A stretch of 41,817 nt of DNA. It comes from Gammaproteobacteria bacterium (GTDB lineage Bacteria; Pseudomonadota; Gammaproteobacteria; UBA6429; Thiohalophilaceae). The stretch lies in NCBI GenBank assembly GCA_029881995.1, contig JAOULO010000028.1:1-41817 (forward strand). The letters run 5' to 3'. A program made the translations under genes and the position numbers. The notes beneath the pieces were generated by a model. It was not told where the DNA came from, did no database searches, and saw only the letters and a list, made by a program, of their open reading frames with translations. Positions 20,248 through 38,400 of this stretch are shown here, piece by piece; within the stretch, counting starts at the first letter, position 1, and each line of letters begins with the position of its first letter.

Positions 20248-21435
20248 ATGATCAAGCCAATCGGATCCGATGAATTACAACCGCGTTTCGTCTACGACGT
20301 AGCTGAACACGACAAACTGAGCAAAGAAGCTGAAGGTCTGCCTTCGGTTGTAATCAGCTCCCAGGCCGCTGGTAATGCGGTCATGATGGGTGGTGGTTAC
20401 TTCAACCCGCTGAAGGGTTTCATGAACGTGGCTGACGCCATGGGTGCTGCCGAGAAAATGACCCTGACTGACGGTTCTTTCTTCCCTGTTCCCGTCCTGT
20501 GTCTGCTGGAATCTGCCGATGCCATTGGCGAGGCCAAACGTATCGCCCTGCGCGACCCTAACGTTGACGGCAACCCTGTTCTGGCCGTGATGGACGTAGA
20601 AGCCATCGAAACCGTTTCTGATGCCCAGATGAAAACAATGACTCAGAAGGTCTATCGTACTGAAGACCCAGAGCACGTGGGTGTTGCCGCATTTAACGGT
20701 CAGGGCAAAGTTGCTGTTTCTGGTCCTATCCAGGTTCTTAACTTCAGCTACTTCCAGACTGAGTTCCCAGACACCTTCCGTACTGCGGTTGAAATCCGTA
20801 ATGAAATCCAGGAACACGGCTGGAAAAAGATTGTTGCCTTCCAGACGCGTAACCCCATGCACCTGGCCCACGAAGAACTGTGCCATATGGCCATGGACCG
20901 CCTCGGTTGTGACGGCCTGGTTATCCACATGCTGCTGGGTAAACTGAAGAAGGGTGATATCCCTGCCCCTGTGCGTGATGCCGCTATCCGTAAGATGGTT
21001 GAGCTGTACTTCCCACCCAATAGCGCCATGGTCACCGGTTACGGCTTCGACATGCTGTACGCCGGTCCTCGTGAAGCGGTACTGCATGCCTATTTCCGTC
21101 AGAACATGGGTGCCACTCACTTCATCATCGGTCGTGACCACGCCGGTGTGGGTGACTACTACGGTGCCTTCGACGCCCAGACCATTTTCGACGATGAAGT
21201 CCCTGCCGGTGCCCTGGATATCGAAATCTTCCGTGCCGACCACACTGCCTGGTCAAAGAAACTGAACAAGGTTGTGATGATGAACGAAGCCCCAGACCAC
21301 GAAAAAGAAGACTTCGTACTGCTGTCTGGAACCAAGGTTCGTGAAATGCTGGGTCAGGGTATTGCCCCGCCTAAGGAATTCTCACGTCCTGAAGTGGCCA
21401 AGATCCTCATCGAGTACTACCAGAGCATCAACTAA
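20248..21435 (+). CDS. sat: Sulfate adenylyltransferase (ATP sulfurylase), Sat type
   Basis: Sat interconverts ATP plus sulfate with adenylylsulfate (APS) plus pyrophosphate. In sulfur oxidisers it runs towards ATP and sulfate after APS reductase, while elsewhere it activates sulfate. The homo-oligomeric Sat family is shown by QTRNPMHLAHEEL (Gln199-Leu211, with the nucleotide-binding Arg201, His205 and His208) and GRDHAG (Gly295-Gly300). MMGGGYFNPLKGFMN near the N-terminus is also typical. The 395-residue length is normal for the form without an APS-kinase extension. GAGGAG six bases before the ATG is a strong ribosome binding site. It stands alone with a bidirectional terminator behind it; no aprAB, APS kinase or cysDN is in the window, so the direction in vivo cannot be settled here. 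Codon use looks that of a highly expressed gene. Confidence 0.96.
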   Translation: MIKPIGSDELQPRFVYDVAEHDKLSKEAEGLPSVVISSQAAGNAVMMGGGYFNPLKGFMNVADAMGAAEKMTLTDGSFFPVPVLCLLESADAIGEAKRIALRDPNVDGNPVLAVMDVEAIETVSDAQMKTMTQKVYRTEDPEHVGVAAFNGQGKVAVSGPIQVLNFSYFQTEFPDTFRTAVEIRNEIQEHGWKKIVAFQTRNPMHLAHEELCHMAMDRLGCDGLVIHMLLGKLKKGDIPAPVRDAAIRKMVELYFPPNSAMVTGYGFDMLYAGPREAVLHAYFRQNMGATHFIIGRDHAGVGDYYGAFDAQTIFDDEVPAGALDIEIFRADHTAWSKKLNKVVMMNEAPDHEKEDFVLLSGTKVREMLGQGIAPPKEFSRPEVAKILIEYYQSIN

Positions 21436-21467
21436 GCACTGATTTGTATTCAGGTAAGACCAAAAAA

Positions 21468-21487
21468 CCCCGTCCACATGGACGGGG
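21468..21487. terminator. Bidirectional intrinsic terminator between sat and asnB
   Basis: Perfect stem CCCCGTCC (21468-21475), loop ACAT, GGACGGGG (21480-21487), flanked by A6 on the left and T5 on the right. It serves the convergent sat (plus) and asnB (minus) genes. Confidence 0.92.
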
Positions 21488-21518
21488 TTTTTCTTTTTAT
21501 AGCTGAAATTAATAAAAC

Positions 21519-23528
21519 CTAAACCGTCCAGCCATACTGCTGTGCCCTGTCGTAAGCCTGTTTCGGGACATCCATTTCCACAAAGTGTTTGTGCAACACC
21601 TGAACGCCAATCATATGGTTGATGACCGCATCCAGCTGCACCTGGGAAGCTGCCGGGGTATCATTAGACTCATGCACTGCAAACAAGGACTTCACTCCGG
21701 CCCTGTCCAGTAGACCGGCATCCTCGATAGCGCTGTCAGACAGGTATTCATCTGCCAGGACTTTCATGGCTGACCATTTTTCTGGATCGGTATGGGCGGG
21801 GGGAGCCATGAAGGCAAACTTTTCACGCTCATAGAGCACTTTAGGCAGCACTCCTTTCATGGCTTCACGCAGAACATATTTCTCCGTTCTACCCTTGATA
21901 CGCATGGAAGGAGGCAACTGGGTGGCATACTCAGCAAGATGGTGATCCAGAAATGGTGGGCGGGCTTCCATGGAATTGGCCATGTCCACCCGGTCCCCCC
22001 CCCAGGTGAGGATCTGGCCCTCGAGCATGGTCTTGATCCAGACATACTGGGCCTTATCCAGAGGATGACGCCCCTCCAGCATGTCACCATCCAGAGCATT
22101 GGCAATGGCCTCACCCGGTAAGTAACCATTCACTTCCGATTGCAGATCTCCGTGCATCAGGCCTCCACTGTGGTTCGAGGCGGCCAGCCAGGGCTGCAGG
22201 CAACTTGGGGTAAAACCGACCAGTTTGTTTAAGGCGTGATCATTAATTTCATTTTCCGCCAGCATGGCGCCCTTAAAGAGTTTGTTACCCGCGGCCAGAG
22301 TCGCTTCCCACTCGGCACGTTCAGCCTTTGACAGGGTATCCATGCCATGTAGAAACATGTCACGTCGAAATGCCGGATAACCCCCGAACAGTTCATCAGA
22401 ACCCTCCCCGGTGACCACCACCTTGTAGCCTGCCTTATTCACATGACGGCTCATGAGCAACTTGGCCACACCCAGAGTATTATAAATAGTGCGCTCCGTA
22501 TGCCAGAGCGTTTCCACAAAGTTGTCATACAGGTGATTGGCCTTCAGTAACATCACATCCTGATCGGCACCGACTGATTCGGCCATCTCGGTGGCAATGG
22601 GGGTCTCGTCATAATTACTGTCATCAAAACCGATGGTAAAGGCCTTGACTGGTGATTGCTGACTGGCTGAGGCCATACCCAGCGTAGAACAGGAATCGAT
22701 ACCGCCGGACAGGTAGCAGGCCACCGGCACATCTGCTTCCAGGCGTAACTGGGTGGCATTGAGCAGTTGTTCGCGAACCCCTTCGATATATTCCTGTTCA
22801 TCTCGTTCGATGCGTTCACTCATGAGAGGGAAATCCATGTCCCAGTATTTCTGTTCTGAGATTTTGAATTTGCCATGGTAACGTTCAATGGTCAGTGAGT
22901 GGCCTGGCCTGATCTGTTGAATCCCATCGAAGGCAGTAGTGCCAGGTACCATGGTTTGCATCAGCTGATGATAAACCCCCTGTGCATTGAATTTACGTGG
23001 TACATCGGGATGGGCAAACAGTACTTTTAATTCTGATCCAAAAATAATCTTACCCTTGGCCTCAGTCCAGTAAAGCGGTTTAATTCCAAACCGATCTCGC
23101 ACCAACATTAAACGATCTTTGCGTTTATCATACAGGGCGAAGGCAAACTCCCCTCTTAAATAAGGCAACATATCCTCAAAACCATACCGAGGATAAAGGT
23201 GCAAAACCATTTCAGAATCACTCTTGGTACGAAAATGAGCACCATCAAGTGTTAGTTCTGCGCGAATACGTTTGTAATCATAGAACTCACCATTATGGGC
23301 CAGTAACAACTGCTCATCAGCTGACATGAATGGTTGACGACTGCGTTGCTCGTTGAGATCAATAATCGACAGGCGGGCATGACTGAAACCTATGCCTCGA
23401 TCATCAATCTTTTTATAGCCAAAACCATCGGGGCCTCGATGGTACTGTATTGCTGCCATGTTGACTAATAATTGAGGGTCCACCGGTTGGGATGGATCAC
23501 TATGAAATATTCCCGCTATACCACACAT
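21519..23528 (-). CDS. asnB: Glutamine-hydrolysing asparagine synthetase family protein (669 aa)
   Basis: The family makes asparagine, or amidates another acid, from ATP, glutamine and aspartate or a related acid. The N-terminal glutaminase domain is complete: catalytic Cys2 (MCGIAGIF), YHRGPDG, and LAHNGEFYDY around residue 77. The synthetase domain has the pyrophosphate loop SGGIDS at 274-279, GEGSDELFGGY, and ARPPFLDHHLAEYA. At 669 residues it is longer than E. coli AsnB (554), closer to the longer bacterial AsnB group that also includes amidotransferases of natural products. It is the last gene of a seven-gene operon, 33 bases after the carbamoyltransferase-like gene. In that context it may amidate a pathway acid rather than simply supply asparagine. 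The fold assignment is secure, the substrate less so. Confidence 0.88.
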   Translation of the reverse strand: MCGIAGIFHSDPSQPVDPQLLVNMAAIQYHRGPDGFGYKKIDDRGIGFSHARLSIIDLNEQRSRQPFMSADEQLLLAHNGEFYDYKRIRAELTLDGAHFRTKSDSEMVLHLYPRYGFEDMLPYLRGEFAFALYDKRKDRLMLVRDRFGIKPLYWTEAKGKIIFGSELKVLFAHPDVPRKFNAQGVYHQLMQTMVPGTTAFDGIQQIRPGHSLTIERYHGKFKISEQKYWDMDFPLMSERIERDEQEYIEGVREQLLNATQLRLEADVPVACYLSGGIDSCSTLGMASASQQSPVKAFTIGFDDSNYDETPIATEMAESVGADQDVMLLKANHLYDNFVETLWHTERTIYNTLGVAKLLMSRHVNKAGYKVVVTGEGSDELFGGYPAFRRDMFLHGMDTLSKAERAEWEATLAAGNKLFKGAMLAENEINDHALNKLVGFTPSCLQPWLAASNHSGGLMHGDLQSEVNGYLPGEAIANALDGDMLEGRHPLDKAQYVWIKTMLEGQILTWGGDRVDMANSMEARPPFLDHHLAEYATQLPPSMRIKGRTEKYVLREAMKGVLPKVLYEREKFAFMAPPAHTDPEKWSAMKVLADEYLSDSAIEDAGLLDRAGVKSLFAVHESNDTPAASQVQLDAVINHMIGVQVLHKHFVEMDVPKQAYDRAQQYGWTV

Positions 23529-23561
23529 AAATAACCTTCAATAAACACTTACTCTACATCG

Positions 23562-24635
23562 CTAAAATAACCAGACGTAACAGGTGAGTAGCGCCATACG
23601 CATAAACACGGCGCCACGGGCCTGGTCGAAATACCAGTTATGTTCTGTCTTATCCAGATCAGTGGACAACTCGTCCCCTCGTGCCAGCGGGTGAAGAATA
23701 ATCGCTGATTCTTTCATTTTGGAATTTTTATCAAGCTTATATTCCATCCCATGCTCTTCATAACTGTCACCCACCCAGGCAATGGCATTGATATAAATGA
23801 TATCCAGTTCAGGGAGTTCTTTATCCATATCAGCACTGACACGAATCTTTAAACCACGCTCTTCCAGTTCCTCCCGCTGCCCTTCAGAAAACACCTTTTT
23901 CGCATTACTAATGATGACTACCTCTTCCCATGACTCAGGAAAGAGTGACAAAAAAAGCAACAGGCTGCGGACAGTGCGCATGCGATCTGGCACGCCAATA
24001 ATACCGACGCGAACCTTTTCGGTTGATTTCAGATCATATTCGATAAGGTTCTTGCGCCACTTGAAAATGGCATACATATCGGCCAGCGCCTGGGTGGGAT
24101 GTTCATCCACTCCGTTACCGGCATTAATGATGGGAATACGCAGGGATTCCATCATTTCATAAATGGCCCGTTCATTGGTATCACGTAATACAACCAGATC
24201 CCCATAACCACTAAGCATCTCTGCCACATCCTGATAAGACTCCCCTTTGGCAATCCCTGTGGTTGCTGCATCTGTTATTGACATAATGTCACCACCTAGT
24301 CGATGCCAGGCACTCTCAAATGACAGTCGTGTCCGGGTGCTAGGCTCATAAAAGGCGCTGATTAGAATCTTGCCGGTCAATGGACGCTGTACAGGGATGG
24401 GGTTCTTCTCATACTTTGCTGCCAGACGGCACAATTGCACCAACATGTCTCGATTAAATTGCCTGGCTGAAACAATCGACTGATTGGCCAGCTCCAGCAG
24501 CGAACCTGGTTTTTCCTTAATATAGTCGAGCAGTTCTTCTGCACTATCGGTATGTGGATTGGGTACCTCAGGTACAAGTGGTTGCGTCTGAAGTTCAGGG
24601 TCGACTTCATCGACCTCGATAGATTTGTCTACCAC
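23562..24635 (-). CDS. Aspartate-carbamoyltransferase-like protein with altered amine site (357 aa)
   Basis: The protein belongs to the aspartate/ornithine carbamoyltransferase family. The carbamoyl-phosphate residues are present: STRTR (99-103), Lys130 (AKGES, equivalent of E. coli PyrB Lys84), Arg151 (Arg105), and HPTQ (179-182; His134, Gln137). Arg220 (MRTVRS) matches Arg167. However, the stretch aligned with E. coli MTRVQ reads INAIA, so Arg229 and Gln231, which hold aspartate, become Ala284 and Ala286, and HPLPR becomes HPLAR (Ala318). An N-terminal extension of about 50 residues is also unusual. The start is GTG with AAAGG nine bases upstream. It overlaps the preceding microprotein gene by seven bases. 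No pyrI or other pyrimidine gene is adjacent. A carbamoyltransferase for another amine, possibly working in reverse, is inferred from the replaced residues and operon context. Confidence 0.85.
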   Translation of the reverse strand: MVDKSIEVDEVDPELQTQPLVPEVPNPHTDSAEELLDYIKEKPGSLLELANQSIVSARQFNRDMLVQLCRLAAKYEKNPIPVQRPLTGKILISAFYEPSTRTRLSFESAWHRLGGDIMSITDAATTGIAKGESYQDVAEMLSGYGDLVVLRDTNERAIYEMMESLRIPIINAGNGVDEHPTQALADMYAIFKWRKNLIEYDLKSTEKVRVGIIGVPDRMRTVRSLLLFLSLFPESWEEVVIISNAKKVFSEGQREELEERGLKIRVSADMDKELPELDIIYINAIAWVGDSYEEHGMEYKLDKNSKMKESAIILHPLARGDELSTDLDKTEHNWYFDQARGAVFMRMALLTCYVWLF

Positions 24636-24751
24636 AGTTGATTACCTTTCCAGTCTTTGATTAAAAGAATAATGAGTATCACAGGTGATACTGCTATGAT
24701 AAAAACGGCAGTTCCAACCAGGATACTTAGAAAACTCAGTGATGCCGTCAT
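24629..24751 (-). CDS. 40-residue single-pass membrane microprotein
   Basis: The frame reads MTASLSFLSILVGTAVFIIA, then VSPVILIILLIKDWKGNQLW. It is one long hydrophobic helix with a short Lys/Trp-rich tail. Its ATG overlaps the stop codon of the symporter gene (ATGA) with AAGGAG eight bases upstream, and its stop codon overlaps the GTG of the carbamoyltransferase-like gene. Three coupled junctions make chance unlikely. Small hydrophobic subunits are encoded next to several sodium:solute symporters, so a symporter accessory subunit is the favoured guess. No specific family is recognised. Confidence 0.7.
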   Translation of the reverse strand: MTASLSFLSILVGTAVFIIAVSPVILIILLIKDWKGNQLW

Positions 24752-26181
24752 ACATGACTCCTTGAGTTGAGTTGTCGCCAGTCATACGATTCGGGACGCC
24801 ACCACATACCGATTAAAACAAGCAGCATGGAAACAACTGCAGAAACCAGTGCGGCAACATAAAAGCCAATGGCAAAATAACTATACAGACCAAGCCCCGT
24901 ACCCATGAGCATGGCAAGTGAGGCAGCGGTACTATTGGCCTTTGTTGAATACAGACCCGCAACAATCGGCCATATAGCACTTGCAACGAATGGCCCCATA
25001 AAATAAAGCAGGCTGGCCAGGGTGCTAATGCGAGGTAAGCATAAAAGCCAAGTCATCAAGCCAAGCGAGATGATTACGATCTTCGCCACCTTATGCAGGT
25101 GTGCATCACTGGCATTACGATTAATATGTCCGTGATAAATATCCTGAGTAATAAAATCACTGGTTGCTGCCAACAGTGAATCCAGACTTGATGCCAGGGC
25201 GGAAAAGACAATAACAAACACCAGTATCGCTCCACCCACCCCGAGTAGTTTTGCCGCCACCATCGGACCCACCATATCTGCAGCAGGCACATTTAATCCC
25301 AGTGCTGGCGTAGTCAGTGCGACAAAACCGGCCACGATGGGAATCGGTACCCACATGAGTCCGGCAATTAGATATGCAGGGAACCCAACCCCTTCGCGAA
25401 ATGCAAAGGCCCGGGACCACCAGACGTTTGAATGAAATATTTCGCCAATACCAAACAGAAGATTATTAAACAAAAACATAATCGCTGCCGGCATCAATAG
25501 ATTCAACAGCTCGGGACGCTCTTCTAAAACTGACTGATGAATTCTGTCGAAACCAACTTTATCAATTGCTAGCCAGGCAAGTACCACCACACCGACCAGA
25601 ATCAGAATCGTCTGAATAAAATCAGTACCGATCACGGCACGTAGTCCACCGAGCAAGGTATAGATTACGCAAATACTGATGATCACCGTCATTCCCAACT
25701 GATATTCAATACCGGTCAAGGCATGAATCAGAACACCACCGGCCATGCCAAGACTGATCAGCCAGCCAAAGGCATAACAAAGTGAGATGACAAGAAATAT
25801 ACGCCAGGACAGATTGCCATAACGCAGACGAATAAAATCACCACTGGTATAACCATGGGGCAAGAGCTTACGAATACGTCTTGCCATCGGGGCGAATAAC
25901 ATCAGACCAACTGAACCCAGTGAATACCCAATCATGCCCCAGATTCCCAGTTGTAATGCCAGTTGCGGAGCTGCCATGGTGGTGTTACTGGTAACCCAGG
26001 TGGCCATGGCCGTGGCAACTCCCAAAGCCATGCCCACATTACGCCCTGCCAACATAAACTCATCGAGTTGCCTGGTTTTTCTACCCCAGAACCAGCCAAG
26101 AAAAACCCATACTGCACTGAACAGCGCCAGGATTAACCAGCCTGTTGTTGGGTCTAGTATGGCGCTATTAACCGGATTCAC
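24748..26181 (-). CDS. Sodium:solute symporter (SSS family)
   Basis: A polytopic protein with about 13 hydrophobic helices and the SSS-family pattern: an N-terminal helix (GWLILALFSAVWVFLGWFWG), the loop FMLAGRNVGMALGVATAMATWVTSNTTMA split here as FMLAGRNVGMALG and ATAMATWVTSNTTMA, and a middle section with GGLRAVIGTDFIQT, a family signature. The transported substrate is not evident; relatives carry proline, pantothenate, urea, sugars or carboxylates. GTG at 26181 was chosen as the start because GGGAGA precedes it and the first helix follows soon after; it overlaps the amidase gene by 14 bases. An in-frame ATG exists further upstream (26268) but would add about 29 basic residues inside the preceding gene. 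Operon context suggests uptake of a ureido or amide compound. Confidence 0.85.
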   Translation of the reverse strand: MNPVNSAILDPTTGWLILALFSAVWVFLGWFWGRKTRQLDEFMLAGRNVGMALGVATAMATWVTSNTTMAAPQLALQLGIWGMIGYSLGSVGLMLFAPMARRIRKLLPHGYTSGDFIRLRYGNLSWRIFLVISLCYAFGWLISLGMAGGVLIHALTGIEYQLGMTVIISICVIYTLLGGLRAVIGTDFIQTILILVGVVVLAWLAIDKVGFDRIHQSVLEERPELLNLLMPAAIMFLFNNLLFGIGEIFHSNVWWSRAFAFREGVGFPAYLIAGLMWVPIPIVAGFVALTTPALGLNVPAADMVGPMVAAKLLGVGGAILVFVIVFSALASSLDSLLAATSDFITQDIYHGHINRNASDAHLHKVAKIVIISLGLMTWLLCLPRISTLASLLYFMGPFVASAIWPIVAGLYSTKANSTAASLAMLMGTGLGLYSYFAIGFYVAALVSAVVSMLLVLIGMWWRPESYDWRQLNSRSHV

Positions 26182-26932
26182 TACAACACATCTCCCTGAT
26201 CTCTTTAATTGCTTCATCTGTATGCAAAACACGCGCATAGCGATCCTGCAAGGTGCGAATCGTCGCATTATGCAATTCGGGTGTTACCGTGGCACAGGCG
26301 TCATTAATAAGCGTGGTATAAAACCCAAGGTCACAGGCATCGCGCACCGTCGTTGAAACACACTCGTTGGTATAGACGCCAACTACAAATAGTCCGGTAA
26401 TCCCCATGTTACGTAACAGGTACTCCAGGTTTGTAGCATTGAATACACCACTGGCGGTTTTATTAATCACAATTTCATCGCGCACAGGTTTAACAGCTTC
26501 AAGAAACTCTGACTCTTTTGAACCGGGAGGGGCATGCAAGCCAAGACGTTTATGACCGGGGCTTCTTTCCCTGCCATCCTGGGTCATGGACATAATGCGG
26601 GTATGAATCACTTCCAGTTTACAGTCTCGAAAGGCCTGTTGAAGTCTGGCAACATTGGGCAGGACAATATGGTCAAGGCGCTTAAAATAATATTCCTGAG
26701 CTTCAACCGGTATACCTGATTTTTCCACGTCAGCAAAAACACCATAGCCAGGTGCCGCATCAAGATACTGAATATCGATAACCAGCAGCGCAGTATGATG
26801 TTGCTCTATAGATTTTTGGACTTCAGGAATCTCAACAATCGAATCCCGATAGGTTTCTTCAAGTGGGTCAACATTTAGATATTCTGGATCAAGCCCCTTC
26901 AAATTCGTTTTTCTAAGATCTTGATCACTCAT
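26168..26932 (-). CDS. Isochorismatase-fold cysteine amidase (254 aa)
   Basis: The family hydrolyses amide or ureido C-N bonds; members include RutB (ureidoacrylate), N-carbamoylsarcosine amidase, biuret hydrolase and nicotinamidase. The catalytic triad is complete: Asp53 (LLVIDIQYLD), Lys158 (VINKTASGVF) and Cys191 (GVYTNECVSTTVRDA). The GVYTNECVSTTVRDACDLG context is that of the amidase branch rather than true isochorismatases. The protein carries an extra N-terminal stretch of about 40 residues. Its ATG overlaps the stop of the M20-type hydrolase gene by four bases, and it overlaps the symporter start, so all three are coupled. The physiological substrate cannot be named from the sequence. 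Confidence 0.85.
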   Translation of the reverse strand: MSDQDLRKTNLKGLDPEYLNVDPLEETYRDSIVEIPEVQKSIEQHHTALLVIDIQYLDAAPGYGVFADVEKSGIPVEAQEYYFKRLDHIVLPNVARLQQAFRDCKLEVIHTRIMSMTQDGRERSPGHKRLGLHAPPGSKESEFLEAVKPVRDEIVINKTASGVFNATNLEYLLRNMGITGLFVVGVYTNECVSTTVRDACDLGFYTTLINDACATVTPELHNATIRTLQDRYARVLHTDEAIKEIREMCCSESG

Positions 26933-28176
26933 ACTACCTTACCTGCAAGTCTAAATAAGGTATTCAATAAAACATTCGCACCCTTTTCGATCTCTTCCCA
27001 GGGTGTCCATTCAGCGGGTGAATGGCTGCGGCCCCCCATACTGGGCACGAAGATCATCGCGGTACGTGTTATACCTGCCATCATCATACTGTCATGGGCC
27101 GCCCCACTGTGCATCTGCATGGAGTGATAACCGAAGTCATGACTAATACTGGTAATCGTATCGACAATACCCTGATCACAGATAGCAGCTTCCAGTCTGC
27201 TCACTTCTTCATACTCAAACATCAGGTCATGACGTCTTGCGATTGCCGATATCGCCTTGCGAAAGGCCTGTGATAATTCATCTAATATCTGCATATCGGT
27301 ATCTCGCATATCCAGTGAAAACTCTACACGACCTGGAACAACATTAGCTGCACCAGGAAAACAGTTGACATAGCCAATGGTTGCAGTACTTCTAGGACTA
27401 CCATTTTCCTCAAGGATACGCGGTACAGCAGATGACACTTCTGCAAAACCCTGTAAGGGATCTTTACGCATGTGCATAGGTGTTGTACCGGCATGATTGG
27501 CTTCACCAAGCAAACGAATGTTCCAACGTAACAAACCTGAGATGGCATCAACCGCGCCGATACACATATTCTGTTGCTCTAAAACAGGTCCCTGTTCAAT
27601 ATGTAACTCGACAAAGGCATGGATATTCTCCGGCTGGCGGCGTGCACGAAGGATATTCATAGCTGTCATTCCCAGCTCCTCCAGCACATCGCTTAATGCA
27701 ACACCATCCAGATCTCTTGCCTGGTGAATAAGTTCGGGAGTCATACGGCCACTCAAGGATTGGGAACCTAGCATACCGCCAAAACGACCTTCTTCATCCG
27801 TGAATGCGATACTTTCAAACGCAAAGTCTGAAGACACTCCCTGTTCTTTTAGGCAGCGTAAACACTCAAGTCCAGCTATTACGCCAAGAGCACCATCAAG
27901 ATGACCCGCACCGGGTACAGAATCCATATGAGAGCCAGTCATAATGCTGTTACGTTCACCATCAAAATTAAGGCGCGCGTGTATATTTGCCGCATCATCC
28001 TGATAATAATCAAGCCCTGCCTGTTCAATACGTGACTTTAACCAGTCACGAGCCTGTAAATCATTTTCTGTAAAGGCCATGCGATAGATACCATTATCTT
28101 CATCACTTCGACCAATACTCGCCAGTGTTTCAATATCATTTTGAAGCCGAGAAAAATTGACTGTTAGCAAATCCAT
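26929..28176 (-). CDS. M20-family N-carbamoyl-amino-acid / allantoate-type amidohydrolase (415 aa)
   Basis: The family removes carbamoyl groups from ureido acids, releasing ammonia and CO2 (AllC, beta-ureidopropionase, L-N-carbamoylase HyuC). The two-metal site is intact: His83 (GSHMDSVPGAG), Asp94 (GHLDGALG), Glu128/Glu129 (AFTDEEGRFG) and His192 (FVELHIEQGP). The lid domain motif GEANHAGTTPMHMRKDPL (around residues 225-242) and the C-terminal MHSGAAHDSMMM and GGRSHSPAEWT are typical. At 415 residues length is normal. Its ATG lies three bases after the stop of the fibronectin-like gene, and the next gene overlaps it. With the amidase, the symporter and the carbamoyltransferase-like gene, it points to turnover of carbamoylated compounds. 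The distinction between allantoate and N-carbamoyl amino acids cannot be made by eye. Confidence 0.88.
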   Translation of the reverse strand: MDLLTVNFSRLQNDIETLASIGRSDEDNGIYRMAFTENDLQARDWLKSRIEQAGLDYYQDDAANIHARLNFDGERNSIMTGSHMDSVPGAGHLDGALGVIAGLECLRCLKEQGVSSDFAFESIAFTDEEGRFGGMLGSQSLSGRMTPELIHQARDLDGVALSDVLEELGMTAMNILRARRQPENIHAFVELHIEQGPVLEQQNMCIGAVDAISGLLRWNIRLLGEANHAGTTPMHMRKDPLQGFAEVSSAVPRILEENGSPRSTATIGYVNCFPGAANVVPGRVEFSLDMRDTDMQILDELSQAFRKAISAIARRHDLMFEYEEVSRLEAAICDQGIVDTITSISHDFGYHSMQMHSGAAHDSMMMAGITRTAMIFVPSMGGRSHSPAEWTPWEEIEKGANVLLNTLFRLAGKVV

Positions 28177-28179
28177 CTG

Positions 28180-28677
28180 CTAATCCCGATTTTCTCGTTT
28201 AGATGCGAACACTATAAAAAACAGTGTAAACAAAAAAACAACAGCACCAGCAAAAAAAAATGCCCAGGCCTTATACAATGAATGATGCTGTACACTGACC
28301 ATGACAGCATTACTCCATGCACTGCTGGATCTATCAACATATACTTTTCTTACTCGATAGAAATACTGTCCATTGGACATCCCACTGATCACACTGGCGT
28401 GATCTGGCCCAATATATAAAGATTTTATAATCTTGAATGATTTATCAACTGACTGCTGGAGTTCGTAACTAGAGTTTTTGTTTGAGGCCCCGACTGTCCC
28501 CGGTTGCCATGACAATTGATAATAACCTGCACTTGCAAGTTGAGTATCTGATGTCAGCACCGGTATTTCTGTGTCGGCAGACAAATAAACAGGTGTGAGA
28601 AGCAGTACTAAAAAAACCACACTCACTTTTCTGCAGAATTCGCCCAACCATCCCAGGCTGTGCGTGTGAAATACCAT
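28180..28677 (-). CDS. Fibronectin-III-like membrane-anchored exported protein (165 aa)
   Basis: A hydrophobic stretch at about residues 18-34 (VSVVFLVLLLTPVYLSA) looks like a signal peptide. The middle (about 38-128) resembles one fibronectin type III domain: GYYQLSWQP, SYELQQSVDKSF, GQYFYRVRKVY and SAWSNAVMVSV. A transmembrane helix (about 136-158, AWAFFFAGAVVFLFTLFFIVF) and charged tail end the protein. No Shine-Dalgarno precedes the given ATG, so the start may be a few codons further in. It is odd as the first gene of a metabolic operon: it ends three bases before the amidohydrolase start. It may help dock or stabilise the transporter at the membrane, but that is a guess. Confidence 0.65.
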   Translation of the reverse strand: MVFHTHSLGWLGEFCRKVSVVFLVLLLTPVYLSADTEIPVLTSDTQLASAGYYQLSWQPGTVGASNKNSSYELQQSVDKSFKIIKSLYIGPDHASVISGMSNGQYFYRVRKVYVDRSSSAWSNAVMVSVQHHSLYKAWAFFFAGAVVFLFTLFFIVFASKRENRD

Positions 28678-28752
28678 TTATAAAAATATTTAGCGTCTGT
28701 TAATTACCATAACACCTGAAACAGGCGTATTCAAACGCACAGGCAATAAAAA

Positions 28753-28780
28753 AGCCCTTTCACATAATAAAAAAAGGGCT
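28753..28780 (-). terminator. Intrinsic terminator after the surface-protein operon
   Basis: Read on the minus strand, AGCCCTTT and AAAGGGCT form an 8-bp stem followed by TTTTTTA. It ends transcription coming from the 28971-29363 gene and separates it from the carbamoyl-metabolism operon. The rest of 28678-28970 shows nothing else I can support. Confidence 0.82.
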
Positions 28781-28970
28781 TTCTACGAAATGTCGCAAAA
28801 TAGTGTACGTTTAACACTTTATCCAACCTACCGAAATCAAAAGCTATTCTTCAATAATTGGGGCTTAAAAACCCTATTTTATACCCCTCTGAAACAAAAC
28901 CAGGCTTTTCATTAAAATCTATTAATCGACAAAATATGAAAGTGTATTCAGATTGCTAGATATATTTAAT

Positions 28971-29363
28971 CTATTTATTATTTTTTCTTTTCTTATTTTC
29001 CTCCACCAAAGCATCTTTGGCAAGTTTAAGCATAACTTTTTTATATTCTTCATTCTTTGCTTTCATTTTGGTTTCTATGCTGGCTCTCTTATCATGATCG
29101 GACAGATTATTATGGTAATCATGCATAAGATCTTTCATGCTCTCTTCCAGCTTTAACTTCTTTTGTTCGTGCTGAACTTTTTCGACACTGGTTAACGGCT
29201 GATGTTCAGGTATTGCCGGTGGTGCGACTGGGTATTTGATATTCGACATACCATGCTTTAGTTGTTGTTGAGTATCCCATTTTACGACTATAAATACGAT
29301 TAAGGTTAATGCCACTATAAGAATTAAAATATTTCTTACTAAGATCTGCCCTGGTGCTCGCAT
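28971..29363 (-). CDS. Small membrane-anchored coiled-coil protein (130 aa)
   Basis: A single N-terminal membrane helix (about residues 9-28, ILILIVALTLIVFIVV) is followed by a proline-rich linker (YPVAPPAIPEHQP) and a long charged helix (about 58-125) rich in Lys, Glu and Gln, likely a coiled coil. The tail is very basic (EENKKRKNNK). No family is recognised. It lies 39 bases downstream of the 3476-residue surface protein and is followed by a terminator, so it is probably the last gene of that operon. A role in export or anchoring of the large protein is possible but not shown. Confidence 0.6.
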   Translation of the reverse strand: MRAPGQILVRNILILIVALTLIVFIVVKWDTQQQLKHGMSNIKYPVAPPAIPEHQPLTSVEKVQHEQKKLKLEESMKDLMHDYHNNLSDHDKRASIETKMKAKNEEYKKVMLKLAKDALVEENKKRKNNK

Positions 29364-29402: not shown

Positions 29403-32400
29403 TTATTGAGTAGTAAAAGTTAATACATGACGGTTTATTTGATTGCCCGCAATATCATATAACGGTGTGTAAATACTTGTATAAACATCATAACGCCGTG
29501 AAGCAACCAGATCTGTATCTGGTGTATATGTTAAACCTAATCCATTAGGATTCAAGCTCCAGTTCCCGTTTATAAAGCTTCCTGTTACTAAATCATACAC
29601 CCTGACACAATCAGGATTTAGCCTAAATGGATCCACTGCAGTACTGAACTGAACCTGAATAGTGGTATTTACCGGTACTCCCGTAGCCGAGTTAAGTGGA
29701 GCTGTCGAAATAACTGTTCCATTGGTTGTAACTGCTCCTGGCCCAGTGACAAATGTCCTGCTTTGGCTTGTTATTGTATTTGTGGCCAGATCCTCTATAC
29801 CTGATATCTGCAAAGTATATGTACTATTAGCTTGTAAAGCTTGAGGCATATCAAATATAACTGTCAGGAGATCAAGTTCTAGTCTATGCGTAAACTCAAC
29901 TGGGTTAGACAAGCTATCAAATAGACCAATACCAGCTAAAGTTAAACGACTTACAGGTTCATTAAACCTGAAACGTATCCTTGCATTGGTAGGAACATCC
30001 ACCTGCCCATTACTGATGGTACTAGTCGTTATCACTGGAGGAAGCAGATCTTCACCGCGGCTAATGTTAAAACTAACCCATCTCTCGCTTATTGGATTAC
30101 CGGCAAAATCCTCAAGATAACTTCCATTTATTGAGTTTATTCTTACAAATAGTTGTGTCCCTGATAATGGTGGGAAAGTTGGTGTGATGGTAATCGTCCT
30201 GCCGTCTTCTTCCAGTACTTTCGTATGGGGAACTTGATTCGATACAGAACTAAATAATCGTACTGTCTGATCATTGAGCGTTAGAGGGTCTACGAGTTCG
30301 CTCAAACGTAACTGAATACGTACATTACTCGGTACATTCGTCGCATTATTAACCGGACTTGTAGCAACAACAACTCCAGGTGAAAGGTCTGCTCCTGAAG
30401 CTGTAGTAAAGCTATATATATCACTACTAGCCTGATTGTTACCACTCAGATCTTCCACTCCAGAGATATTTAATGTGTAACTGCTATTTGCCTGTAATAA
30501 CTTCTGTGGTCGAAGAATAATCTGAGTCCGGTCTACATTAAACGTAGCATTATAGGGAACGCTACCTTCACTACCAAGCAATGTTACCCCATCAAGGGAA
30601 GTTGACTTGACTGTCTCACTGAAAAATATTCTGAACCGGGCATTTGTAGGAAGATCGGTTTGGCCATCAGATATGGATACTGCTGTAACTGAAGGTGGTA
30701 TAACATCAATTTCTGTACTTGTAGTAAAGCCTTCATTGAAATAGTTACTGTATATATTTGCCAGATCATAGGCTAGTAATCTGAATCGATAATTGCGACC
30801 AGCTTCTAGTGCAGAATCTGGCACAAATGTCATTGTTCGGCCATCTGAAGACAGCCCATAGCTACCTGGGACAAGCTCAAAAGTCGTCCTATCTTCCAGA
30901 TAATGACTATCAAGCCGAACTGGATTCAATGGTTCATCATAACGAACGACAAATACACTATTGGTAGGTACATCAGTTGCCCCATTTGCCGGATCAAACG
31001 ATATGAGTGATAGTCCATCATTGACCTGTACTCCGGTCTGATAAGTACTGTTAGCACTCGGGACGATATTTCCGGCCATGTCATATATATTAGCCACTAT
31101 ATCAGTATGACTCTGATTCTCTGCCAGTGGTGAATGGAGTATCCGTGTTACAACTTGTTCTTCACCATACATTGACAATGTCAGACTACTTGCCTCACCA
31201 GCATAGTACTCCTGCAAACCAACCGGACTCATGTGCTCACTAAAGCGCACCATCTTTTTCGCATTCAAGGGCACATTACTTAATCCGTCTGGTGGACTCA
31301 TACTTACAACTGTTGGCACTACACTGTCTTCTGTAAGTGCTACATCAGTAAGGAAGTTATAAGACCCAATAGTATCTCCGATACTGCTTCCATCAACTGC
31401 CCTCAGATCTGTCGTATAATAAACATAGTGGTAAGTATTCACTGCACTGAGTGGTGAATTTGGTATCAAGCGTACGACTCTATCACCCACCATATTAACT
31501 GTCGCCGGTAATAGTGTCTCACCCTGCATCAGATAAACACTTCTCTCGGTTACTGTTGCTGCATCCAGCGGTTTATTGAAGCGTATTTCGATAGAAGGGT
31601 TAGTCGTACTTACTGTGCCACTTGGGGTCTGGCTCATCAGTGCCAGGTTCACTTCTGGTCCACTATCCACAGTAAAGTAAGATGAGTAATTATTTACTGC
31701 ATTGCCTGCCAGATCAGTCGCTAGACTACTTAGGAAAACATCTATCATTGCACCCGGTTCAAACGGTTGTAGTGGAGTAAACTCAATGGCCTGACCATTT
31801 CCAGTGACGTTAACAGTTCCATCGATTAATAAACCATTTTGAGACACACGCAGGCCGGCGTTGATACTGGCGATGTCGAGTGGTTCACTGGCATATAGCA
31901 CGACAGAACTATTACGATTTACATTGCGACTTCCGATTTGAGGATATGAAATTATGGAAGGTCGTGAATTATCGGAAACTGCTGTAGTAAACACGCTAAT
32001 AAAATCTGACAGGTTATTGCCAGCCAGGTCACGAACCCCATTTGTTGCTAATACAGAGACTACACTATTAGGTGGTAGCTCTTCCAGCAAGGTCAACCGC
32101 ACTGTATTGCCATCAGATGAATAACTCACACTAGGATGTATTACCTCACCATTAACATATAGGGCAAAGTTATCACTATTTAATGTACTATAATCAAGGT
32201 GCTCAGAAAAACTTAAGCTGACTTGTACCCTGGTACTAACATCCATTGCCCCATCAACGGGACTCACCACTTCTACAGTCGGTGATGCCGTATCTAGTAC
32301 TTGTTCGGTTGTAAATCTTGTATATGGAATTAAGTCACTATTTCCTACTAAATCACCAAAACTACCGTATAGGCTAATATTCCTACCTATAGGTAATGGG

Positions 32401-35400
32401 TCGATCGGTATCAATGTTGCCACTGTATTATTAGCACTCAAAATTATCCTGGCCGGAATTGTTCTAATTACACCACCAAAACCACTATACTCTAACCGTG
32501 CGTACAGTGTAGTTGGATCAATTTGTTCACTAAAACTAAATATGACACTGGAGTTAACATCAACATTTGTACTGCTACCAGCTGGGCTAAAGCTAACATT
32601 TACCGATGGTGGCGTATTGTCAACAGTAGCGACACTCTCTGTTGTAAAACTGCTGCTATACCCAGATAATAAATTACCGGCATAATCACATACACCACTA
32701 ATATTTAATGTGTATACGGTACCAGTTGCCAGGCTCTCAGCAGGATTAAAGACTAATACACGATTAAATGATTCCAGTCTAACAGTACCCACCACAGCTT
32801 CACCACCAGCAAGCAACTGGACAGTGCTGTTGTTAATACATACTTCACTTATTCTTTCTTCAAACTTAACGCGAATTTGTCCGCCAATATTTACATCAGT
32901 TGTACCGTTGATAAAGCTTGTGTGCAGGATGGTAGGCGGTATTACGTCTTCACCATCCTGGCCAACAGTAAAGGAATAGTTGATGCCATCAAATGGGTTA
33001 CCCGCAACATCTGTAAATTGATAATATCTCCTGAATCTACCATCATCATAAATACCACTTATAGATACTGAATAAGTATGGCCAGCAAGAAGTGGCTTAA
33101 CCGGCGTCATGGTAATCAGTTGTCGATCTTCACTCAGGGTAAAATTATATGGGATATCGCGAAGCTCAGAATCCTGTAATGCAAACGTTAAGCGGTTTAT
33201 TGACGTTGGATCCAGAGGCTTATTGAGATAGGCCTGAATAATTGCATTTGTTGGTATATTTGTTGCTCCATCATAAATATTTGAACTCACAACAGAACCA
33301 CGGGCAATATCCGCCTGATCAGATGTTGTAAAACCAACCACCTCAGTAGTTGCCTGAACGTTACCACTAAGATCTTCTACACCTGAAATGATTAAAGTAT
33401 AACTGCTGTTTGCCTGCAGAAATTGCTGTGGTCTTATCAGGATAGAGTCACGATTATTATACAATAAAACATGCGCAGATATATCACCTTCACTGCCAGT
33501 AAGCCGTATTTCATTAATGCTATCTGACTTAAGCGGTTCACTAAAATCTACTTTAATTCGACCATTAAGGGGTATATCTGTCTGGCCATTCATGATGGTC
33601 GCCATCACTACAGCTGGTGGGGTAATATCCGTTAACAGGCTAGTGGTAAAACTCTTATCTAAACTATCGTAACGATTGCCTGCAAGATCAACCGCTTGAA
33701 TTGTACGTTTATACTCACGTCCTACGGCCAGTGCCTCATCCGGGATAAAGGTTACGTCTAATCCATCTGGAGATAAACTGTAGGTGCCTGTCACTATTTC
33801 ATTCGTTCTAGCATCATATATATAATGTAGATCAAGGAATAATGGGTTAACCGGTTCACTATACCTAATAGTAAAAACACTGCTCGTTGGCACGTCATGA
33901 TCGAGGTAGAGGTTTGGCTCGTAACCTGTTGTGGTTAGTTCGTTAACAGCCATCCGCTCTCCTGTCTGATAGGTACTATTGCTACCCACAATCTGGTTCC
34001 CAGAATAGTCATATACGTTACCAATAGTGTCTGTGTGACTCTGATTCGATGCCAATGGCGAATGCATTATTCGGGTCACTAAACGGTTGCCGCTTGAAAT
34101 AATAAGACTACTATTCTCATCACTAGAGTAGTACTCCTGCAAACTCAATGGACTCATCGCTTCACTAAATCGAACCATCTTCTGAGCATTTATGGGTACA
34201 TTACTATAACCATCTGGCGGACTCATCCCTAGCACTGTCGGTACAACATTATCTTCCACTAATTCTAAATCAGTGATGAAGTTATATGACCCTATTGTCC
34301 CACCGACATTACTACCATCAGTAGCTCTCAACTCGGTGTTATAGTAAACATAATGGAAAGTATCTACAGCAGTCAGAGGTGCATCAGGTGTCAGCCTGAT
34401 AATACGATCACCTATCAAACTAACGGAAGCAGGCAAAGATTCCTCACCTTGCATCAAATAGATATTATCCGGCGTTACCGTTGCAGCATCCAATGGCTTA
34501 TTGAAGCGCAATTCAATAACCGGGTTAGCTAACCTAAGCGTACCATTGGGTGTCTGGCTTAGCAGTGTAAGATTCACATCGGGGGAACTTTCTATTGTAA
34601 AGTTAGACGAGAAGTTGACTAGCCCATTACCCGCAAGGTCAGTTGCACTGCTAGTCAAAAAAACTTCAATCACAGCTCCTGATGCAAATGGTTGTAGAGG
34701 GGTAAATTCAAATACCATACCATTATTTGTCCCATTAACAGTACCGTCTATAAGCACCCCATTTTGAGAAACAAGCATGGAACTAGTAACACTGGCTACA
34801 TCTAAAGGCTCACGACTATAAAATACGATCGTACTGCTTCGATCTACATCACTACTACCATTTCCAGGATAGATACTATGCACTGATGGACGGCCAGTAT
34901 CTGTAACTGAAGTACTATATACACTTATAAAATCAGCCAGACTATTACCAGCCAGGTCACGAACATCATTTGTAGCTATCACCGATATTACACTATTAGC
35001 AGGAATATTGCTTGACGGCGTAAGCCAGACAGTCCGACTATCACTTGAACGACTAACACTTGGTCGATAGTGAATTCCATTAGCAAACAGAGCAAAGTTG
35101 TTATCATTAACAGTGGAGGGGTCCAGAGGTTCTGAGAAAGTGATCACCACAGGCCTTCTTCTAGACACTCCAACATCAAGGGCCCCATTAGCTGGGCTTA
35201 TAGACTCAACCACAGGTGCAGTAGAATCTAAGGCAATTCCAGTAAAAAATGAACTATCAAAATAGTTAGCGCGATTACCCGAAACATCTCTTACATCATC
35301 ATAAATACTGTTATCCGTTATAAATATTTGAGTATTTGCTGGCAGTGGGTCATTCGGAATAAATGTTGCGACATTATTCGTAGCATTCATGACATATTGT

Positions 35401-38400
35401 CCAGGGACAATGATCGTCCCAGCGGCAGCTGTTCCAATATCATAATAAATTGTAATATTGCTTAGTGAGGTAGGATCAATTGCTTCACTAAAATTAAATA
35501 CGATATTCGAATTTACATCTATATTCTGAGAACCAGATGATGGTGTTATACTAACTGTTGGTCTAGTGATGTCTCGACTGGCTTCAGAATTTGTAGTAAA
35601 ACTACTGCTGTACGTTGTAACAAAGTTACCAGCATAATCACACAACCCACTTATATTTAATGTGTAAGTTGTATTTTCTGATAAATCAGTAGACGGACTA
35701 AAAGTAACTACCCTTTGATCTCTATCTAGTGTGACATTACCTGATATGACCTCTGTACCCGACAGTAGTTGTACCGTATTTTCACTAACACATGTAGCAC
35801 TTAGCCGCTCAGCAAATTCGACCCGAATACGACTATTTACCGCCAAGTCAATGGTTCCATCAGGTATGCTGATATTACTCACAACAGGTAAAACAAGGTC
35901 ATTTCCGTCATAACCAACACTAAAGCTGTAATTCAACCTTCCAAACCAATTTCCCGCCAGGTCGTAAATTCCCGAAATGGAACCAGAATAAGATTGACCG
36001 GAAGCCAAAGGAGAGTCAGTTGTAAATATAACAGTTCTACCATCTGGCCCAACCTCCGAATTGAGTATTTGACCACTACTAAACCCACCCCCATACAACC
36101 TCAGTGTTGCAGTAGCAACTGACACAGGATCCACAGGCTCACTTAGATACAACCTGATTTTTGTGTTAGATGAAACATATGTATCTCCATCTAATGGGCT
36201 GTAGCTGCTGATGGAACCATTTGATATGTCAATTATGTTACTTGTGGAAAAATTTATAGTCACAGATTCTGTCATCAAATTACCACTCAGATCTCGAGCC
36301 CCATTAATATTCAGGCTGTAGTTGGCATTTATGTCCAGTGGTAACCTTGGTGATACTGATACAACGCGGTTAAAATAGGATAATGAACGGTCGATTGCGA
36401 CAGGTTCACCATTAGAATCAAGGAGGTTAATACCTGATATTGAGTGGCTGCTGATAGACTCATTAAAGCCAATATTTAGAACGACATTTCTTGGTACATT
36501 TGTCTGACCATCTGAAATAGTTGTAAACAAAACCTCAGGCCTAACAATATCTTCATCAAATGAAGTAATAAAATAGGCATTCGTTTGATTAAAATTGTTA
36601 CCAAATAAGTCGGTTAAACCCGACATAAGTGATATATTATATCTTCTCCCTACTGCAAATACCTCATCCGGTACAAAATGCAATATTCGGTTGTTTTCTG
36701 TCAATGAAATTGTACCAGGTATTCGACTTGAGGTGATGCTGTCTAAAACATAGAAGTTTCCAGGAATAACTGTGGCTGGATCAAGGGGCTCATCCATTAC
36801 AACAGTAATTATAGAATTGACAGGTACGTCTCTGTCCCCCCAGGCTGGATTATAATTTAATACACGAGGCCTTTGAAAATCAGATGTGTTACCTGTTGTA
36901 AAGCTGCTGCTAAATTGTGTAGCTAGTGAATTTCCAGCAACATCCCGGACTTGCTGAACAATGAGATCATAAGAAGTGTAGTCACCTAGAATTGCATCAG
37001 GCCTGAATAATAACTGCGTATTATTATTCAACAATTGAATAGTGCCGTTCACGGGAACAGAATTATTTAAAAGCTGGATACTATTCTGTGTAACAGATTC
37101 AGATAATAATGGTTCATTAAAGTCGATTATAATTAAACTATTTTCCGCAATATCCACTGTACCATTAACTGGGCTTACACTTACAACAACGGGTGGATTA
37201 ATATCTGGGTTCAATGGATCGGTTTGCTGATTTATTTCAGTTAAATCACTGATACCATCTCCATCAGAATCATTATTAAGCGGATTTGTTCCTCTATTTA
37301 CTTCATCAAAGTCATTCAATCCATCATTATCACTATCAGGATTAAGTGGGTCTGTACCATAGATCGTTATTTCCTGATTATCACTCAGTCCATCACTGTC
37401 TGAATCTTGTTGTACTGGTAACACGATACTCTGTGCATTACCAATATTGCTGGCAAGGTCAACCGCCGTTGCTGTAACACTTATCTCACCTGTACTACCC
37501 CTTGGTAATGTATAACTCACCTGATAAGGGTACGATGTATCAGTCGCAATAATTTCTCCATTAACAATAAAGTCGACAGAAACGACAAACACATCGTCAT
37601 CCGCATTTGCAGAAATTGTTATTTCTTGTCCTTCAACAATATCATCACCGCTTACTGGAGATGTTATTGTTAATGTCGGTGCAATCGTCCCTTCATCTCT
37701 AAAATCGATAATTTGACTAATGTAAAAGCGGGATGTTCCAGTTGTTGCAGGTTTAATATCTACTTGAACCCCATCAGAAGATGTAATGTAAACGTATGGT
37801 GCTGCTGAAGATATCCCCGAAATATTTCCCGTTCTTCCACTAACTCCATGCATCAACATATCCTGCAAATTTGGAGTTTCAGGATTTGTTGTACTCATGA
37901 TACCCAAAGGCGTACTATCACTAACCAGCCCTGTGAATACTAGATTACCAAACGCCGCATGGACATCCATGAGCCGGGCATTAGCCCCGCCAAACCCACC
38001 TCTAAATACTGGGATAACAGGATCTGAGTAATCAACAACACGCAGGCTTGCTGCGGTACCAAAGTATGCATACGGGGGTACCAGTTGAACATCAAATGAC
38101 TCAGCGTTTAACTCTATAGTACTAATTGCTGACGGATTACCTGGTACGGAGACATCTATAAAACTTGCAGGTGCATTGCCATTCGAAACAACGGCGACGC
38201 CATTTGCCACATCAACACCATTTGCAGTTCCAATTGTGTCGACACTCCCGACAATTCTTGGGTTAGACATATTTCCCAGTGCGATAATTTGTAAGCCGTT
38301 GCCACCATCGGCAATATATACGTGATCACCCCGCACTACCAAATCAATTGCATACCCTGGTGTGTCGACTGTAAATAATAAATTTGGTACAGCCGGATTA

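Follow-up and report, generated by a model that had tools for sequence, protein, structure and literature searches.

Two uncharged, glutamine-derived solutes provide the closest described comparison for the locus analyzed here. N-acetylglutaminylglutamine amide (NAGGN) is synthesized with the help of AsnO, and its operon is controlled by the MarR-type regulator PA3458 (PMC8070244, cited, like all papers below, from the part of its text that was available). Nα-carbamoyl-L-glutamine 1-amide (CGA) is accumulated by Ectothiorhodospira marismortui (PMC1224877) and, as far as the available text of PMC3857566 goes, was found in one organism only. A text search of the open PubMed Central (PMC) set on the names of CGA returned no report of genes for it. 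Here, we describe a seven-gene operon read from 28677 down to 21519 on the minus strand of a 41,817-nucleotide stretch of DNA (contig JAOULO010000028.1 of assembly GCA_029881995.1, from a gammaproteobacterium of the Thiohalophilaceae), referred to below as the window. No description of this operon was found in the open PMC literature when its enzymes were combined with operon or osmolyte terms. With a rough probability of 0.6, the operon makes and manages CGA as a compatible solute; we infer every substrate, the order of the steps and the role of salt in this reading.

In the proposed route, a carbamoyltransferase (CTase) would carbamoylate the alpha-amino group of L-glutamine, with carbamoyl phosphate as the donor, acting as a glutamine N-alpha-carbamoyltransferase. 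An asparagine-synthetase-family glutamine amidotransferase (AsnS) would then spend ATP, with glutamine as the nitrogen donor, to amidate the alpha-carboxylate of N-carbamoylglutamine, as AsnO does in NAGGN synthesis, and would thus yield uncharged CGA. For turnover, an isochorismatase-fold amidase would strip the 1-amide and an M20 amidohydrolase would subsequently remove the carbamoyl group, returning glutamine. Uptake or retrieval of the solute would be the task of a sodium:solute symporter (SSS), a 40-residue partner and a fibronectin type III (FnIII)-like membrane protein.

Organization, conservation and modules of the operon

The original prediction had described seven coupled genes in this order, and all seven open reading frames (ORFs), their order on the minus strand and their junctions were confirmed in the window. 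The first gene encodes the FnIII-like membrane protein (28180..28677, 165 residues) and is followed, after a gap of 3 bases, by the gene for the M20 N-carbamoyl-amino-acid-type amidohydrolase (26929..28176, 415 residues), which overlaps that of the isochorismatase-fold cysteine amidase (26168..26932, 254 residues) by 4 bases. The SSS gene (24748..26181) overlaps the amidase gene by 14 bases if it begins at the likely GTG start at 26181, its frame being open from 26268. Further overlaps of 4 and 7 bases join SSS to a membrane microprotein (24629..24751, 40 residues) and the microprotein to the CTase (23562..24635), and a gap of 33 bases separates the CTase from AsnS (21519..23528, 669 residues). 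The families assigned earlier agreed with Pfam and NCBIfam models, namely M20 hydantoinase/carbamoylase, isochorismatase, SSF, OTCace_N plus OTCace, and Asn_synthase plus GATase_7.

Conservation was assessed in samples of 40 genomes of the family, 369 of the class and 398 of the phylum (at E 1e-100). An orthologue of the CTase occurred in 12 of the 40 family genomes, the window's own genome included, and wider regions were compared for the other 11. All seven genes were present in the same order and strand in 10 of these 11 loci, so the linkage on which the original prediction depended survived comparison with relatives; the eleventh locus (L026) begins inside SSS at a contig end, and AsnS of L032 runs into one. 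Carriers in the family include Thiohalophilus thiocyanatoxydans DSM 16326 (G038; L105). In the class sample, 23 of 369 genomes had an orthologue (at least 374 bits), the next best sequence scoring 247 bits. Of the 20 class carriers not already compared, 19 were used (all but G349, which is split over two contigs): 14 had transport genes and enzymes, some of them cut by contig ends, 4 had the four enzymes only and 1 was a short fragment. Apart from the own genome, the phylum sample yielded only a single distant relative, scoring 386 bits, in which AsnS and SSS adjoin the CTase and an M20 with 44% identity lies on the opposite strand; the amidase, the microprotein and the FnIII-like protein had no match at this locus. 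A scan of viral_contigs found nothing.

A scan of named genomes returned 250 relatives of the CTase, of which the best 80 were kept; counts of named loci below refer to these. By tblastn alone, 25 of the 80 contained all seven genes in the same order. Cultured carriers among them belong to Thiohalophilus, Thioalkalivibrio, Ectothiorhodospira, Kangiella, Aliikangiella, Pleionea, Idiomarina, Pseudidiomarina, Aliidiomarina and Pseudomaricurvus, genera generally known from marine, saline or soda-lake settings. Pairwise protein distances across loci correlated (rho 0.48-0.90); we gave this no weight because shared species history alone would yield such a correlation. In one locus (L074), AsnS and M20 were each split over frames, by either sequencing errors or decay.

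The gene set splits into three parts: a core of CTase and AsnS, the hydrolases and a transport module. The CTase was present in 80 of 80 named loci and AsnS in 78, the other two being cut by contig ends; in all 78 the two genes were adjacent on one strand, with a gap of 0-273 bases in 77 and an overlap of a few bases in L143. M20 (at least 50% identity) occurred together with the amidase in 45 loci, a divergent M20 (42-46% identity) without the amidase in 13, and the amidase alone in one contig-cut locus. Both hydrolases were absent from 21 loci: 7 are contigs whose first bases fall within or close to SSS or CTase, and 14, from Idiomarina, Pseudidiomarina, Aliidiomarina and one metagenome-assembled genome, have intact upstream flanks. 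SSS was found in 67 of 80 loci, and the 13 without it are 11 enzymes-only loci and two short contigs (L119 and L159). In the enzymes-only loci the three transport genes (SSS, the 40-residue protein and the FnIII-like protein) were absent together, and all eight Ectothiorhodospira loci had the four enzymes without a transporter, as would be expected for a solute synthesized within the cell. These absences apply to the locus only, since the rest of those genomes was not searched for further copies.

Because the locus can lack the hydrolases or the transport genes and the CTase-AsnS pair is invariant, the core looks synthetic rather than degradative, and the conserved pathway appears to be mainly biosynthetic, with optional uptake and turnover. 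The original prediction had read the operon in the direction of uptake and breakdown, and in this respect it was not borne out. A catabolic version would have SSS import a ureido compound, the hydrolases strip its groups, the CTase run in reverse to carbamoyl phosphate and AsnS store the nitrogen. The presence of a transporter beside two hydrolases of ureido- and amide-cleaving families fits such scavenging, as do the models matched by M20 (hydantoinase/carbamoylase and a subfamily named after allantoate amidohydrolase). However, the transporter was missing from 8 of 8 Ectothiorhodospira loci and both hydrolases from the 14 of 80 loci with intact flanks, an ATP-driven amidotransferase that is universal in the core would be wasteful for nitrogen gain, and no carbamate kinase or ring-opening enzyme is found among the seven genes. 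We therefore rejected catabolism as the main function and consider it rather improbable.

Core enzymes and the link to Ectothiorhodospira

In an alignment with Escherichia coli PyrB, the CTase keeps STRT, K84, R105, H134, Q137 and R167, has Gly instead of Ser at position 80, and has Ala at the equivalents of R229 and Q231. Among the window and the 80 named loci, the region of the last two residues reads YINAIAW in 55 sequences, YINAISW in 13, YINSIAW in 5, YINAIVW and YINTIAW in 3 each, and YINKIAW in 1. Thus, in 80 of 81 sequences the R229 equivalent is Ala, Ser, Thr or Lys and the Q231 equivalent is Ala, Ser or Val, and MRTVRS, which carries R167, is likewise present in 80 of 81; L168, in which the tblastn match starts ahead of a stop codon, is left out of the motif counts. 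We take R229 and Q231 to hold the side-chain carboxylate of aspartate and R167 to hold the alpha-carboxylate. With R167 kept and both other residues lost, an acceptor with an alpha-carboxylate and a neutral side chain is implied, and the acceptor is probably a neutral amino acid. Transfer of carbamoyl groups to a distinct acceptor, as originally proposed, is supported to the extent that the acceptor appears to be other than aspartate. In its available part, PMC6981877 cites work on R167 and Q231 only in its references.

The CTase scored below the cut-offs of both aspartate carbamoyltransferase (ATCase) models (TIGR00670, 200.0 against 236.95; NF002032, 192.7 against 263), of the ornithine carbamoyltransferase (OTCase) models (108.7 against 306 and 97.0 against 280.85), and of the putrescine carbamoyltransferase (71 against 500) and YgeW (34.1 against 500) models. 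Its AlphaFold model (pLDDT, the per-residue confidence score, 84.3) has the ATCase fold, and all 50 solved structures among the matches listed are ATCases, as would be expected of an extra ATCase for pyrimidines. A role as a pyrimidine enzyme was rejected, given that R229 and Q231 are lost and that both the own genome, in which two other family members were identified by active-site alignment, and E. mobilis DSM 4180 (see below) hold a separate PyrB and OTCase. A thiol-amide role would have AsnS make glutathione amide, which most of these purple sulfur bacteria are expected to contain (PMC8877833). This is disfavoured, as the available part of the same paper records that E. mobilis and E. marismortui, both operon carriers, have no glutathione reductase, and glutathione amide needs no carbamoyltransferase. 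Taken together, such housekeeping or thiol-amide roles are very improbable.

A second ATCase-like group (L089-L094, in G201, G310, G284, G234, G379 and G048) had 33-38% identity to the window CTase. It lacks the K84 motif and, where the copies reach, STRTR and HPTQ, and no AsnS match lies alongside; one genome, G284, carries both kinds. We dropped the view that these are mere distant relatives of the CTase, as they are without the catalytic residues and partner genes, and they are probably catalytically dead.

AsnS passes the asparagine synthase model TIGR01536 (430.1 against 267.1). C2 and the catalytic residues E375, D378 and K570 are invariant in the window and 74 loci, and an SGGIDS loop is present.

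The idea of CGA preceded the scan of named genomes, which then returned Ectothiorhodospira mobilis DSM 4180 (L122) as an operon carrier, together with seven more Ectothiorhodospira loci, all of them enzymes-only. Strain DSM 4180 is the type strain of E. marismortui according to the available parts of PMC7824335 and PMC8877833 (genome FOUO in the latter). The type strain of the species from which CGA was reported therefore carries the operon core, and the link is at the level of the species. In addition, the DSM 4180 genome (G359, L083) has three PF02729 genes, which are OTCase, PyrB (by model) and the operon CTase, leaving one spare carbamoyltransferase of this family, beside an amidotransferase.

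In DSM 4180, M20 is preceded on the same strand by a MarR-type gene, and 25 of 80 named loci, including all eight of Ectothiorhodospira, have a relative of it with at least 50% identity next to the operon. This gene is upstream in Ectothiorhodospira and Thioalkalivibrio and behind AsnS in L108 and L119. MarR-type regulators (CosR/EctR1) control ectoine genes, and MarR-type control has been described for ectoine and betaine genes (PMC7876524, available part). By analogy with these systems, the MarR neighbour offers weak support for an osmolyte operon. A search for salt-stress expression data in the open PMC set returned nothing usable.

Turnover, transport and flanking features

M20 passes the hydantoinase/carbamoylase model TIGR01879 (385.2 against 204). 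Among narrow (equivalog) models, its highest score is for N-carbamoyl-L-glutamate amidohydrolase ErtE, where 377.7 bits fall below the cut-off of 520, and the AllC equivalog TIGR03176 is missed (283.7 against 597.75). Residues H83, D94, E129, H192, H228, N278, R291 and H385 are invariant in the window and the 45 amidase-holding loci, and position 278 is His in 13 of 13 divergent M20s without amidase. Based on L-carbamoylases, Asn278 together with Arg291 presumably forms the site for the substrate carboxylate. If Asn278 does bind a carboxylate, its co-variation with the amidase would fit an amidase that frees the carboxylate first, and an altered M20 that acts alone otherwise. The divergent M20 of these Kangiella-type loci (L111, L114-L116, L118, L133, L141, L144, L145, L157, L163, L166 and L172) lies either on the opposite strand upstream of the operon or behind AsnS.

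The amidase passes PF00857 (114.2 against 27), and its triad D53, K158 and C191 is invariant in the window and the same 45 loci. The best solved match was cysteine hydrolase 6xix (E 1e-17).

SSS passes PF00474 (97.8 against 22.8) and misses the PanF and PutP equivalog cut-offs. A 40-residue protein follows it in 94 of 94 loci that have both SSS and CTase, a set made up of the window, relatives and named loci in which some genomes occur twice; 70 of these proteins were found by tblastn and 24 by position, and all 24 of the latter end in Trp. In the window, this single-helix protein has the C-terminus ...DW....LW. It is real and conserved, and is probably a small partner of the symporter. Neither Pfam nor NCBIfam has a model that matches the FnIII-like membrane protein. 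In its predicted fold (pLDDT 84.8), an N-terminal helix and a long C-terminal, transmembrane helix enclose seven strands, and among solved structures it comes closest to fibronectin type III domains (best E 3.8e-05), which bears out the earlier description of a fibronectin-like membrane protein. A tblastn search detected no relatives of it in the 11 named loci that have the enzymes only. In the other loci where tblastn missed it, a suitable candidate ORF precedes SSS wherever the contig extends far enough, L155 being the one exception. Judged from the loss of these genes as a unit, the symporter, the 40-residue helix and the FnIII-like protein may represent a small-subunit design for SSS transporters.

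Upstream of the operon, inspection by eye revealed a hairpin with a T run, AAAGCCCTTT...AAAGGGCTTTTTT (28751..28782, minus strand), between the operon and the preceding genes. Its 12-nucleotide loop is beyond the limits of the terminator scan, which did not list it, and it is a possible terminator of the upstream unit. A scan for sigma-70-like promoters on the minus strand of 28600-29000 found no site. Adjoining the operon, a 3476-residue protein (29403-39833, minus strand) appears by eye to consist of tandem Ig-like/adhesin-type repeats, with long stretches apparently duplicated internally. Directly behind it, a 130-residue protein (28971-29363, minus strand) has one N-terminal hydrophobic stretch and no Pfam or NCBIfam match. 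At the other end, a symmetrical terminator-like stem flanked by A and T runs (21463..21492, listed on the plus strand) lies between the operon and a convergent ATP sulfurylase gene (20248-21435, plus strand), and by its sequence could end transcription arriving from either side. The ATP sulfurylase gene is retained nearby in L024 (G026) and in L030 and L031 (G038 and G037, genus Thiohalophilus), which suggests sulfur-oxidising hosts.

Candidate products and comparison with known systems

Several observations weigh against CGA as the product. CGA was reported from one species, whereas the operon occurs in many. Family PF02729 does not cover every carbamoyl-transfer chemistry, and the eight PF00733 matches in DSM 4180 (G359) include an NAGGN AsnO over its cut-off, so CGA could be amidated elsewhere in that genome. 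The MarR-type gene has no match in the window and fits no osmolyte-specific model, and the MarR family is large. For M20, the top model was NF006771 (518.6 against 399), named by NCBI as an allantoate amidohydrolase subfamily; this is a broad subfamily model, and its name does not fix the substrate. The coupling of Asn278 with the amidase may be one evolutionary event, as the 13 divergent sequences are one subgroup. Ectoine synthase was not enriched, occurring in 2 of 23 carriers (G165 and G373) versus 52 of 369 class genomes; with neither enrichment nor clear depletion it is neutral, and was dropped as a halophile marker.

The weakest point concerns AsnS, for which close kinship with NAGGN AsnO was expected and not found. 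It misses the AsnO model TIGR03104 (300.5 against 570.1), and in a FastTree phylogeny rooted on E. coli AsnB, 26 of 26 operon AsnS formed one clade (support 0.93) and 17 of 17 AsnO fell in another. Of 30 operon sequences, 4 of at most 640 residues were left out of this tree, and L213 was dropped from the AsnO set as too short. Doubtful ORF picks in L193, L196, L200, L206 and L207 were not used. The nearest sampled neighbour of the operon clade was a cyanobacterial plasmid gene. A match on pSymB, initially taken for an NAGGN asnO, missed the cut-off and is not one. Moreover, AsnS has GEGSDE, as true asparagine synthetases do, whereas NAGGN AsnO has GQG[A/S]DE. Modelling and mutants of human asparagine synthetase place the equivalents, Glu-364 and Asp-367, in contact with the intermediate at its amino-acid end (PMC6748925, available part). 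Retention of GEGSDE would thus allow a substrate with a free amino group, implying amidation before carbamoylation or plain asparagine synthesis, and judged by these residues AsnS could be making asparagine.

The same features leave room for another carbamoylated amide, such as N-carbamoyl-asparagine or a carbamoyl dipeptide amide, with CGA made otherwise or as one of several products. A pass of the asparagine synthase model together with GEGSDE would suit this alternative, and the loss of R229 and Q231 fits any neutral side chain, asparagine included. On the other hand, AsnS is well under the E. coli-type AsnB model (271.8 against 499), and DSM 4180 has no further ATCase/OTCase-family gene besides OTCase, PyrB and the operon CTase. 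We regard another solute as unlikely and CGA as the preferred product.

The original interpretation is partly supported, and the observation behind it is confirmed: the data favor a conserved carbamoyl/amide pathway that fits no named one. A broader proposal, to which we give somewhat less than an even chance, is that CGA is widespread as an osmolyte among Gammaproteobacteria of marine, hypersaline and soda-lake habitats, and that two enzymes, a glutamine carbamoyltransferase and an α-amidotransferase, make it by a route not yet described; CGA would be imported by a three-part symporter and recycled by amidase and carbamoylase or, in Kangiella-type loci, by one altered, amide-accepting M20. 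If CGA is the product, genes would be assigned to an osmolyte without reported genes in the literature found, and a carbamoyltransferase subfamily with a new acceptor would be recognized. Annotations could be corrected as well, such CTases and AsnS being easily misread as pyrimidine and asparagine enzymes. A nitrogen-rich solute, exchangeable through the symporter, would be predicted in many sulfur oxidisers and marine bacteria, and the enzymes would be usable for making it.

Compared with known enzymes, the CTase resembles PyrB in fold (Foldseek E 1.2e-25 to 1ml4), carbamoyl-phosphate residues and R167, and differs from it by the replaced R229 and Q231, about 45 extra N-terminal residues ahead of the aligned domain, and scores under the ATCase cut-offs. 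M20 is similar to N-carbamoyl-L-amino acid hydrolases and AllC in passing TIGR01879 and NF006771 and in keeping the metal ligands and the Asn/Arg pair; it is unlike AllC in missing the equivalog, and its substrate is probably N-carbamoylglutamine. The amidase shares the Cys-Lys-Asp triad with biuret and N-carbamoylsarcosine amidohydrolases but is far under the BiuH cut-off (75.0 against 370).

At the level of whole pathways, CGA of E. marismortui is a known compound (cited in the available parts of PMC1224877 and PMC3857566), and the type strain of this species carries the enzyme core. The operon resembles the NAGGN operon (asnO-ngg; PA3459-PA3461) in that an asparagine-synthetase-family enzyme would yield an uncharged osmolyte by amidating a carboxylate derived from glutamine, and in having a hydrolase gene alongside, a predicted aminopeptidase in the case of NAGGN. 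A MarR-type regulator adjoins both, in Pseudomonas aeruginosa (PMC8070244, available part) and in the 25 named loci noted above. Unlike the NAGGN operon, in which AsnO belongs to a separate clade with its own motif and model, the operon described here has a carbamoyltransferase in place of the GNAT-family acetyl/peptide synthase, and a transporter module is added.

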